Shown: positions 32,762-35,865 of the stretch, in pieces
Layout: each line of letters opens with the position of its first letter
Numbering within the stretch: the stretch's first letter is position 1
From: Desulfovibrio sp. JC010
Lineage (GTDB): Bacteria > Desulfobacterota > Desulfovibrionia > Desulfovibrionales > Desulfovibrionaceae
DNA: 64,000 bases
Reading direction: 5' to 3'
Assembly (NCBI RefSeq): GCF_010470675.1
Contig: NZ_VOIQ01000010.1
Location: forward strand, 1-64,000
The notes under the pieces: model-generated
The model's input: only the letters and a program-made list of their open reading frames with translations
What the model was told of the DNA's origin: nothing
Databases searched by the model: none
Translations under genes and position numbers: made by a program

Positions 32762-33379
32762 CTACGGGCCAAGCAGATAACTCTCAAGCATCATAACCAT
32801 CTGGTAGACCAGACGGTCTTCCCCTGCGTCGGAATCAAAAATAACGGCATGATGGGAAACCTCTTCCACCACAAGATGAACCAACTCCGCCGCAGCCTCA
32901 AGGTCATCCACTTTGAGATGCTCCTTCTGTTCCTGCAAAAACTCCAGCAGCTTCCCCCTGATCCTGCGGTCCCTCTCCCTGCCGATGGCCGAGATTTCTT
33001 CGTCCGTAGCTTCAAGGGCCATCACTTCACGAAAAAACATCCGGTTGCTGCGATGAGATTCAACAGAATACACACCCACCATGCGCATGGACTCCCGGAA
33101 CGACTTTCCCTCTTCAAGGCTGGCCCGGGCCTTGGCGAAAATATCAAAGCTCATTCGGGCCTGAAGCATGTTGATCACTTCAATGAAGATCACCTTTTTA
33201 TTCTTGAAGTAGCGGTAGACCGACCCGGTGGAGACTCCGGCTGCGGCTGCGATATTTTTGGTGTTGGCCCGCGCGTATCCCTTTTCAGAAAATACGCGCA
33301 GGGCCCCCTCCAAAATATCATTCCTGGTAACATCGGCTCGCTCCTGCACCGGCTCGAAGTTTCCATGCTTACGAATCAT
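32762..33379 (-). CDS. TetR-family transcriptional repressor
   Basis: A 205-residue regulator: N-terminal helix-turn-helix TRNDILEGALRVFSEKGYARANTKNIAAAAGVSTGSVYRYFKNKKVIF, then an all-helical ligand domain. The ATG at 33379 has AAGGA six bases upstream; a longer form starting at 33409 lacks support. It lies downstream of, and in the same direction as, a methyltransferase gene whose upstream region holds two 18-base palindromes (34120-34173). These are the best candidates for its operator. Confidence 0.9.
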   Translation of the reverse strand: MIRKHGNFEPVQERADVTRNDILEGALRVFSEKGYARANTKNIAAAAGVSTGSVYRYFKNKKVIFIEVINMLQARMSFDIFAKARASLEEGKSFRESMRMVGVYSVESHRSNRMFFREVMALEATDEEISAIGRERDRRIRGKLLEFLQEQKEHLKVDDLEAAAELVHLVVEEVSHHAVIFDSDAGEDRLVYQMVMMLESYLLGP

Positions 33380-33428
33380 AAGAATCCTTAAAAAGTGGTT
33401 GCGCTTCACGCTCTTATTATTTGATTTC

Positions 33429-33490
33429 GCCTCCGGCGGCTTAAACCCTTTTTGAAAAAAGGGTTTAAGAATCCCAAAAACTTTTACCGG
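33429..33490. repeat. Dispersed intergenic repeat, copy B
   Basis: GCCTCCGGCGGC (33429-33440), the perfect hairpin CTTAAACCCTTTTT/AAAAAGGGTTTAAG (33440-33469), then TCCCAAAAACTTTTA. In reverse orientation it matches the flanks of copy A at 26288-26357, with an unrelated but equally perfect stem between them. Confidence 0.5.
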
Positions 33491-33517: not shown

Positions 33518-34087
33518 TTACTTACTCAGATAAGCCTTGCGGGCCATAAATGAAGTCGGCAGCTGCTCAACAGCAAAACCAATTTCAATTGCAGCTTTCA
33601 ACTCTTCATCGAAAAATCCAGCCCTTACATGATGACGCGGTTCAGTAAAGAGAAAACCTCCGCCCGGCAGCAGTACATCGTATATATCCTGCAAGGCTTT
33701 GCGATAGTCCGGCGTTTCATGGATAACATTTCCTGCAACCACAAAATCAACCTTTCCCGGATAGCCGATCCCGTCATGACGGCACTGGTGAAAGGCAATC
33801 CTACCGGCCAGCCCGGCCTTTGCAGCTCTTTTAATGGCAATTTCAAGCATTTTCTTCTGCAGGTCAACCGCTACAACTTCACCGCTCTCCCCAACGAGAC
33901 GGGCCGCACCTATTGAATAGTGACCCAGTCCGCAGCCGAAATCCAAGACCTTCATGCCCGGACGGACCCATTTTTCAAGAGCCTTATCAGCCGGATCAAT
34001 CATGCGGCGCAATTTATTATCAAAAGTATAAGCCACTCACCACGGGCAGACATGCATTCCACCATTGTTTTGTTCTGTTTTAGGCAT
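33518..34087 (-). pseudogene. SAM-dependent methyltransferase with in-frame TGA at codon 17
   Basis: From the ATG at 34087, preceded by a perfect GGAGG, the frame reads MPKTEQNNGGMHVCPW, then TGA, then VAYTFDNKLRRMIDPADKALEKWV and a complete class I methyltransferase (motif I VLDFGCGLGHYSIGAARLVG, then VVAVDLQKKM, and LLPGGGFLFTEPRHH). Relatives I recall have CPWW followed by (L/V)AYTFDN or LGYL, so TGA replaces a conserved Trp codon (TGG to TGA). GTG follows directly (TGAGTG), so a 172-residue product could be made by reinitiation at 34036. Selenocysteine is less likely because relatives have Trp there. The substrate is unknown. Tandem palindromes upstream suggest TetR control. Confidence 0.7.
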
Positions 34088-34119
34088 AACAGTTTTCCTC
34101 CATGTTTTTTGTAAAATGA

Positions 34120-34137
34120 ACTAAAGTTCACTTTTGG
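34120..34137. promoter_or_regulatory. Palindromic operator, proximal copy
   Basis: ACTAAAGT-tc-ACTTTTGG is a near-perfect copy of the distal palindrome, 33 bases before the methyltransferase ATG. Confidence 0.6.
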
Positions 34138-34155
34138 TCAAGAAGAAAAACCGAA

Positions 34156-34173
34156 CAAAAGTTCACTTTTGTC
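34156..34173. promoter_or_regulatory. Palindromic operator, distal copy
   Basis: ACAAAAGT-tc-ACTTTTGT is a perfect 8-2-8 inverted repeat, 36 bases (centre to centre) from the proximal copy. The spacing places both on nearly the same helix face. Probable TetR site. Confidence 0.6.
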
Positions 34174-34266: not shown

Positions 34267-35457
34267 TTAAACCAGAAAACGGGAAAGCTGCTGCATATCA
34301 ACACCCAGAGAACTGGGATCAGGCTGGCGCATAACCATAACACCCTGACCGTTTTTCTTATAGGTGGCCAGATCGACACACTCGGAAACCACAGGCTGCA
34401 TTTTGTCGTTAAACAGGACCTTGACCTTCGGATGACGCGGTTTGGACTCATTGGTCTCCAACACAATACCGAAACGCAGATCGTCCAGCTGGACCATGGT
34501 ACCCGGAGGGTAAATACCCATAACCCTGATAAAACGATTGAGATAGGCAGGATCGAAATCCGTGCCTTTCCACTTGTACATCTGGCTAAGGGTCTTGGCC
34601 GGGGTTACCGCTTTTTTATAAACCCGCACACTGGTCAGGGCATCATAGACGTCGCTGATAGCGATAATCCGCCCGAAAGGATGGATATTCTCCCCCTTGA
34701 CCCCGCTTGGATACCCGTTGCCGTCATAACGTTCATGATGTTCAACAACACCACGCAGCACAGCCTGATCAAGACCCTCAACATCACGGAGAACCTCAAG
34801 TCCCTTTTGGGAATGGGTCTTCATAATACCGTATTCAGCATCAGTAAGCTTGCCGGGCTTATTAAGCACCTTGTTGGGAATGCGCCCCTTGCCCACATCA
34901 TGAAAAAGAGCGGCAATACCGAGCATCTCCAGTTCTTCACGCGTAAGACCGAGTGCCTTGCCCAGCAACAGGGAATAGAGGTTTACGTTAATACTGTGGG
35001 TGTAGGTATACTCGTCATATCTTTTCAGAAAGGCCAGAGTGAGGGCTGCAGGCTCGTTTGTGGTCAGACTGTCAATCACCTCCCCAACAATGGGAGCAGC
35101 TTCTTCGACCTCAACAGTCTTACCCTTGCGCACGTCTTCTATAAACTTATGGGCATAGTCGAGGGCTTCTTCATGCACCCGGCGGGCTTCCGGCAGAGCG
35201 TCAGCAAGATTACGTGCGGCCTCTTCGGCATTTTTCGCCTTTTTATTTCCTGAAGGATCCATCGCTGGCAGGGACTTACCGGTCAGAATTTCCACCCGTT
35301 CGGTGTCGTCGGGGAGATATTTGGCAATATCATCCAGCGACTCGATAACTCTTCCAACCTCCACATGAGGATCGCTAAAAGATCCGGTGCCGTATGTACG
35401 CACATACATACCCGGCTTTACATCCTTTTTCTTTATAACCCTGACTTCGTCAGCCAC
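34267..35457 (-). CDS. HD-GYP c-di-GMP phosphodiesterase
   Basis: A 396-residue protein with an N-terminal DUF3391 domain (~1-120: VKPGMYVRTYGTGSF) and a C-terminal HD-GYP domain. Visible residues are HSINVNLYSLLLG, FHDVGKGRIPNKVLNKPGKL (HD at ~186-187), HHERYDGNGYPSG and ISDVYDALTS, giving the metal-binding set and the GYP motif. It hydrolyses c-di-GMP to GMP or pGpG in the cytoplasm. GAGGGG is eight bases before a GTG at 35457; the TTG fifteen bases further upstream overlaps that site, so GTG is the better start. It is monocistronic. Two GGDEF proteins in the window (44048 and 52931) are the opposing activity. Confidence 0.92.
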   Translation of the reverse strand: MADEVRVIKKKDVKPGMYVRTYGTGSFSDPHVEVGRVIESLDDIAKYLPDDTERVEILTGKSLPAMDPSGNKKAKNAEEAARNLADALPEARRVHEEALDYAHKFIEDVRKGKTVEVEEAAPIVGEVIDSLTTNEPAALTLAFLKRYDEYTYTHSINVNLYSLLLGKALGLTREELEMLGIAALFHDVGKGRIPNKVLNKPGKLTDAEYGIMKTHSQKGLEVLRDVEGLDQAVLRGVVEHHERYDGNGYPSGVKGENIHPFGRIIAISDVYDALTSVRVYKKAVTPAKTLSQMYKWKGTDFDPAYLNRFIRVMGIYPPGTMVQLDDLRFGIVLETNESKPRHPKVKVLFNDKMQPVVSECVDLATYKKNGQGVMVMRQPDPSSLGVDMQQLSRFLV

Positions 35458-35865
35458 CTGAAAACCCCTCAAAAATTAAGCTATCCGCAATATTTTACCC
35501 GGAAATAAAACTTTATCGCTAAATTTCTATAAAAATTAAACTTTAGCAAAAACATAATATTTACTAAAACCGATTCATTGACCATACAATTATAATCATG
35601 AAATTATACTCAAAAATGCCATGCGTGTCCCTTTAAAAAATTTTTTTCAGAAGCAAAGACCTATTAATATTATAAAAAAAGAAAAACCCTTTATCTATTA
35701 CCAAAAGCTGCTTGACCTACTCCATAGGATGTTCTACGCAGGACTTTCAGCAAATGAACGGTTGCCACGCAACCTGAACCCGAAGCAGCTTCACTTCCGT
35801 TAATGACTTATCGGCAGTGGCTGCATTTTTATTGACAACGACGGAAATATTTTGAGGTTTATGGA
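35458..35865. other. ~400-base region without a supported gene
   Basis: AT-rich, between the divergent HD-GYP and greA genes, so it holds both promoters. A TTGACA occurs at about 35833, close to greA, but no well-spaced -10 follows. A 60-codon frame near 35621 has no ribosome-binding site and looks like chance. Confidence 0.4.

Follow-up and report, generated by a model that had tools for sequence, protein, structure and literature searches.

Reinitiation of translation has been described as strongly dependent on distance: for six gene pairs, three from E. coli and three from Haloferax volcanii, a distance of about 20 nt is reported to have almost abolished it (PMC10666635). In-frame TGA codons may also be decoded. 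According to PMC12013277, Cys homologues now seem to exist for every known selenoprotein, and the standard model misses some genuine bacterial SECIS elements. For tryptophan, the Hirsh UGA suppressor of the E. coli tRNA-Trp is described as a G24A change (PMC11805395), and a giant-virus tRNA-Trp with a similar adenine has been linked to UGA read-through (PMC3521657).

The locus described here has the same features as known cases of nonsense mutation with termination-reinitiation, namely a one-base change from a sense codon to a stop, an intact frame after it and an abutting start codon, and with a presumed restart it differs from them in no way known to us. With bacterial selenoproteins it shares an in-frame TGA in a genome with a tRNA-Sec, but unlike them it was found without a Cys homologue, without structure after the TGA beyond that of shuffled sequences and without a TGA-bearing relative. 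What interrupts the methyltransferase is a single-codon nonsense change of an ordinary kind, whether real or a draft error, with a plausible restart and no new reading of the code.

We analysed a window of 64,000 nucleotides from Desulfovibrio sp. JC010. The original prediction had placed a GGAGG and ATG, MPKTEQNNGGMHVCPW, a TGA, a GTG and a methyltransferase in one frame, and the sequence confirmed this arrangement on the minus strand, which the prediction had not specified. Read from 34087 down to 33518, the order is MPKTEQNNGGMHVCPW, TGA, GTG, an open frame and TAA (33520-33518). The features of the locus and its surroundings are:

34267..35472, minus strand: 5' neighbour, an open reading frame that we take to be an HD-GYP-type gene
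34155..34172, minus strand: palindrome ACAAAAGTGAACTTTTGT, seen in the sequence, a candidate operator
34117..34130, minus strand: palindrome TGAACTTTAGTTCA, also 5' of the G013 orthologue, a candidate TetR operator
34097..34101, minus strand: Shine-Dalgarno GGAGG of the methyltransferase, seen in the sequence nine bases 5' of the ATG
34040..34087, minus strand: first 16 codons, MPKTEQNNGGMHVCPW, from the ATG (34087), based on the sequence and on relatives
34037..34039, minus strand: in-frame TGA, codon 17, a site that is TGG (Trp) in 7/7 other genus orthologues
34034..34036, minus strand: GTG, codon 18, seen in the sequence, a candidate restart giving a putative 172-aa product
33518..34036, minus strand: intact open frame 3' of the TGA, a class I SAM-dependent methyltransferase by open reading frame, Pfam and codon comparison
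32762..33379, minus strand: 3' neighbour, a tetR-type regulator with an ATG start, from a family search

Full read-through would give a protein of 189 residues. The CPW at the end of the 16 codons is preceded by HV in six and by HL in one of the seven other genus orthologues, and the 16-codon segment can on this ground be regarded as a genuine part of the methyltransferase gene. A second in-frame ATG at 34057-34055 is codon 11, the apparent start point in G004 and G005 (starts of relatives were inferred from upstream stops). In the TGAGTG junction stop and start abut (stop-to-start distance 0, within the spacing for termination-reinitiation), so that the restart allowed for in the original prediction has the right geometry. 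Given the strong distance dependence of reinitiation, a ribosome ending at codon 17 should be well placed for a restart at codon 18. A good Shine-Dalgarno sequence for the GTG was absent. A mechanical scan of the window yielded 53 long, little-overlapping stop-to-stop frames, which were not verified as genes. For six of these, the segment immediately 5' of the leading stop contained an in-frame start with a Shine-Dalgarno-like motif. Five of the six segments had 141 to 705 codons and resembled neighbouring genes, and the methyltransferase segment with its 16 codons was the only short one.

The gene was present in 8 of 17 genomes of the genus, the query counted, at E 1e-30 or better. All seven other orthologues read TGG TGG where the query reads TGG TGA, as in the nearest one (G013, 79% identical; TGC CCA TGG TGG GTC). 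At codon 18, G013 has GTC and the remaining six orthologues encode Leu; selection of the GTG as a start is therefore unsupported. Trp also occupies position 17 in G233 and G256, which represent two other genera of the family, and in a pair of MAGs under the titles Ignavibacteriaceae and Bacteroidetes. A search of 348 genomes of the class, with at most 10 candidates scored per genome, gave matches in 32 genomes at E 1e-25. None of the 31 other matches contained an in-frame stop, and for 30 of them the site is covered by the match or the alignment, or the match begins just past it; the match in G295 starts beyond the site. We aligned 30 of the 32 matched loci, leaving out G295 and G242, together with two MAG loci (L039 and L040). 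Across these 32 rows, position 17 holds Trp 11 times, Tyr once and the stop once, in the query; in the remaining 19, which are more distant and have an uncertain N-terminal alignment, the residue is E, K, S, N, R, H or G. Neither Cys nor a stop was found in any of the 31 other rows.

From this distribution of residues, Trp is likely the ancestral state at position 17 in the close clade, and the stop at codon 17 appears private to one lineage. Since Trp occupies the position in relatives, TGG to TGA is the simplest change, a single transition. The results thus bear out the expectation of a second Trp in relatives, and the TGG in 7/7 genus orthologues and the Trp in 11/32 rows support the simple explanation offered with it. 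Alignment of homologues at the CPWW position, which had been proposed as a check, showed neither Cys nor Sec at position 17 in the 31 other rows. A TAA at the G004 locus was considered as a second interrupted case and rejected, because it precedes the orthologue's own ATG (MHVCPWW) and is missing from the genus-search match.

Our main reading, to which we give a probability of about 0.68, is that a small class I methyltransferase linked to TetR underwent a G-to-A substitution (TGG to TGA) at codon 17 and that translation restarts at the GTG next to it. Ribosomes would load at the GGAGG and ATG, make a 16-residue peptide and terminate at the TGA, and some of them would restart at GTG codon 18 and produce a 172-residue protein. 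This product would keep the whole SAM-binding domain, with the Pfam match beginning at residue 43, and would lose the N-terminal HVCPWW. The substitution would be recent, or close to tolerated, and the gene is missing from many members of the genus. The TGA itself, the TGG of the orthologues, the intact frame that follows and the patchy occurrence of the gene are observed; we infer the authenticity of the TGA base, the restart at the GTG and a reduced or lost function.

The N-terminal Cys (C14) was kept in 12/12 rows of an alignment that included two MAGs of other phyla (A2), and in 24/32 rows of the wider alignment. Given how widely this residue is kept, translation of the HVCPWW motif and selection on it are probable. 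The GTG product lacks the residue, so that the shortened enzyme is probably impaired and its full function doubtful.

No frameshift or second stop was found 3' of the TGA. Between the query and G013, differences after the TGA fell on codon positions 1, 2 and 3 in 27, 18 and 91 cases, with a pN of 0.125 and a pS of 0.728; the latter is near saturation, so that the codon comparison dates nothing. With six outgroups, the query had 5-8 unique residues and G013 10-11, and unique changes at codon positions 1 and 2 numbered 15-18 in the query and 15-21 in G013. At these positions the query had slightly more changes than G013 with two of the six outgroups (18 vs 15 and 17 vs 16) and fewer with four. 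The query departed from columns otherwise invariant in the genus three times and G013 six times. Accordingly, change in the query did not clearly exceed that in G013, as relaxed selection 3' of the stop would have predicted. This lack of visible decay is compatible with a recent event, and implies that the change is young, or that the shortened protein works, or that some full-length protein is made, or that the base is wrong. Read-through or a sequencing error would be expected to leave the frame after the TGA just as undamaged.

A base-call or assembly error, with the genome truly reading TGG and the protein ordinary, is an unlikely explanation that deserves to be taken seriously. It is possible because the TGA rests on one assembly of the species, a draft of 64 contigs in which the locus occurs in full once, and an error would agree with a gene that is otherwise undamaged and evolves normally. 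Single substitution errors are, however, rare in a deep draft consensus, the genome is 99.96% complete and 0.88% contaminated, and the scan of 53 frames in the window revealed no other short interrupted start. An erroneous base would make the finding relevant to the record only.

Decoding of the UGA as Trp by a near-cognate tRNA-Trp, sustaining a low level of full-length enzyme, appears rather improbable. Trp is the residue of close relatives, and both tRNA-Trp genes found in the genome (L100 and L101) have a D-stem GTTC/GAAC of the U11-A24 type, an adenine like that of the Hirsh suppressor, where position 24 follows our own count. But 16 of the 17 genus genomes share this D-stem (G002 gave no match), and being so common it does not represent an adaptation to this TGA. 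Both tRNA-Trp have the anticodon CCA, and a pattern search that was open to CCA and TCA, and could miss a diverged tRNA, found no lineage-specific suppressor tRNA-Trp. Against read-through further stand the G following the TGA, a surrounding stretch that folds no better than shuffled sequences, and the fact that no relative kept the TGA. That Trp read-through was the less likely option, as originally predicted, is supported by the two CCA anticodons and the lack of relatives with the TGA. A24-type tRNA-Trp may occur naturally in many other bacteria. It is conceivable, at long odds, that the genus-wide A24-type tRNA-Trp rescues enough enzyme to make the change from TGG to TGA nearly silent, and that private TGAs may persist in working genes. 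A genome-wide reassignment of UGA to Trp was rejected, as TGA ends 9 of the 53 long window frames, and is thus a normal terminator here, and both tRNA-Trp found are CCA.

We regard it as very improbable that the 16 codons encode a regulatory leader peptide whose stop serves to set downstream expression by coupling. The TGA-GTG junction does have the geometry of coupled genes, but the CPW end lies within the enzyme frame in 7/7 other genus orthologues, and the stop was found in one genome only across the genus and class searches and the 32-row alignment. An Rfam family above cut-off was found neither at the locus nor in three orthologue loci.

The question of selenocysteine is a fair one because the genome carries a tRNA-Sec (82.5 bits, over the cut-off, and also found by ARAGORN). 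The three best NCBIfam matches were moreover methyltransferase selenoproteins, but far under their cut-offs and via a generic domain. Folding alone could not exclude selenocysteine, since some true SECIS elements escape the standard model, and homologues weigh more. The 61 bases from 34040 down, covering the TGA and what follows, folded worse than the shuffle mean (z +0.95). All four stretches folded for a stem-loop after the TGA were less stable than their shuffle means (z +0.95, +1.71, +1.40 and +1.02), and no SECIS family came up in Rfam, even with matches accepted up to E 10. Selenocysteine insertion at the TGA thus retains next to no probability and was rejected mainly on the homologues, with Cys at position 17 in 0/31 other aligned relatives and no second TGA-bearing relative among the class matches and the 32-row alignment, and with folding as support; the original prediction had ranked it as less likely.

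For annotation, we suggest that a nonsense change with restart be recorded by calling the gene as an N-terminally interrupted methyltransferase or from the GTG at 34036, and as neither a selenoprotein nor a recoded gene. The locus further offers a clean natural TGA-GTG junction for comparing restart with near-cognate read-through.

The methyltransferase matched Pfam Methyltransf_31 at residues 43-155 (E 1.1e-22, 80.7 bits against a cut-off of 27), and the best solved chain by profile was 3dh0, a SAM-dependent methyltransferase (E 5.4e-23). By this domain and this profile match it resembles the class I SAM-dependent methyltransferases (Pfam Methyltransf_31/25/11). It differs from the NCBIfam methyltransferase families in that the best 25 of 48 matched families all stayed under their curated cut-offs, and a substrate is therefore not named. 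An AlphaFold model from a three-row alignment had a mean pLDDT of 52 and about 30 across the first 30 residues, too poor for placing the N-terminal motif. None of the 62 stretches of viral contigs that fit the search pattern encoded a relative. Plasmids gave 554 matching records, all below 60% identity, with a single one covering 80% or more of the query; these are generic methyltransferase matches.

Nine of the 17 genus genomes were without a match at E 1e-30, and no orthologue was found in G007, G001, G016, G003, G010, G015 and G011, the seven whose HD-GYP-type gene is most similar to that of the query. In G007, G016 and G009, 123-134 bases separate the HD-GYP-type gene from the tetR that comes next. 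A search for a methyltransferase remnant in the spacers between these genes in G007, G016, G009 and G010 returned one chance-level match of 21 residues (E 1.9, in G016). Judged by such comparisons, the methyltransferase is an accessory gene, and damage to it is therefore probably tolerable. The tetR gene also lies 3' of the methyltransferase in G013 and G008. Because tetR lies downstream, the early stop could lower its expression by polarity.

Palindromes similar to TGAACTTTAGTTCA and ACAAAAGTGAACTTTTGT were also present 5' of the G013 orthologue and 5' of tetR in G007. The palindromes at 34117-34172 are probably operators of the TetR-type protein. Between the methyltransferase and tetR (33422-33486, minus strand) lies an interspersed element, about 65-100 bases long, that contains the hairpin AAACCCTTTTTTCAAAAAGGGTTT. 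It had at least 61 matches in its own genome including the locus itself, with 40 of 307 first-look candidates scored. Eight copies were aligned, and the weak matches represented the hairpin met on the opposite strand. The element is missing at the G013 junction, where tetR starts nine bases past the methyltransferase stop. Elsewhere in the window, at 1804-1858 on the plus strand, we found a match to the Rfam COG3860 cis-regulatory RNA with 68.4 bits.
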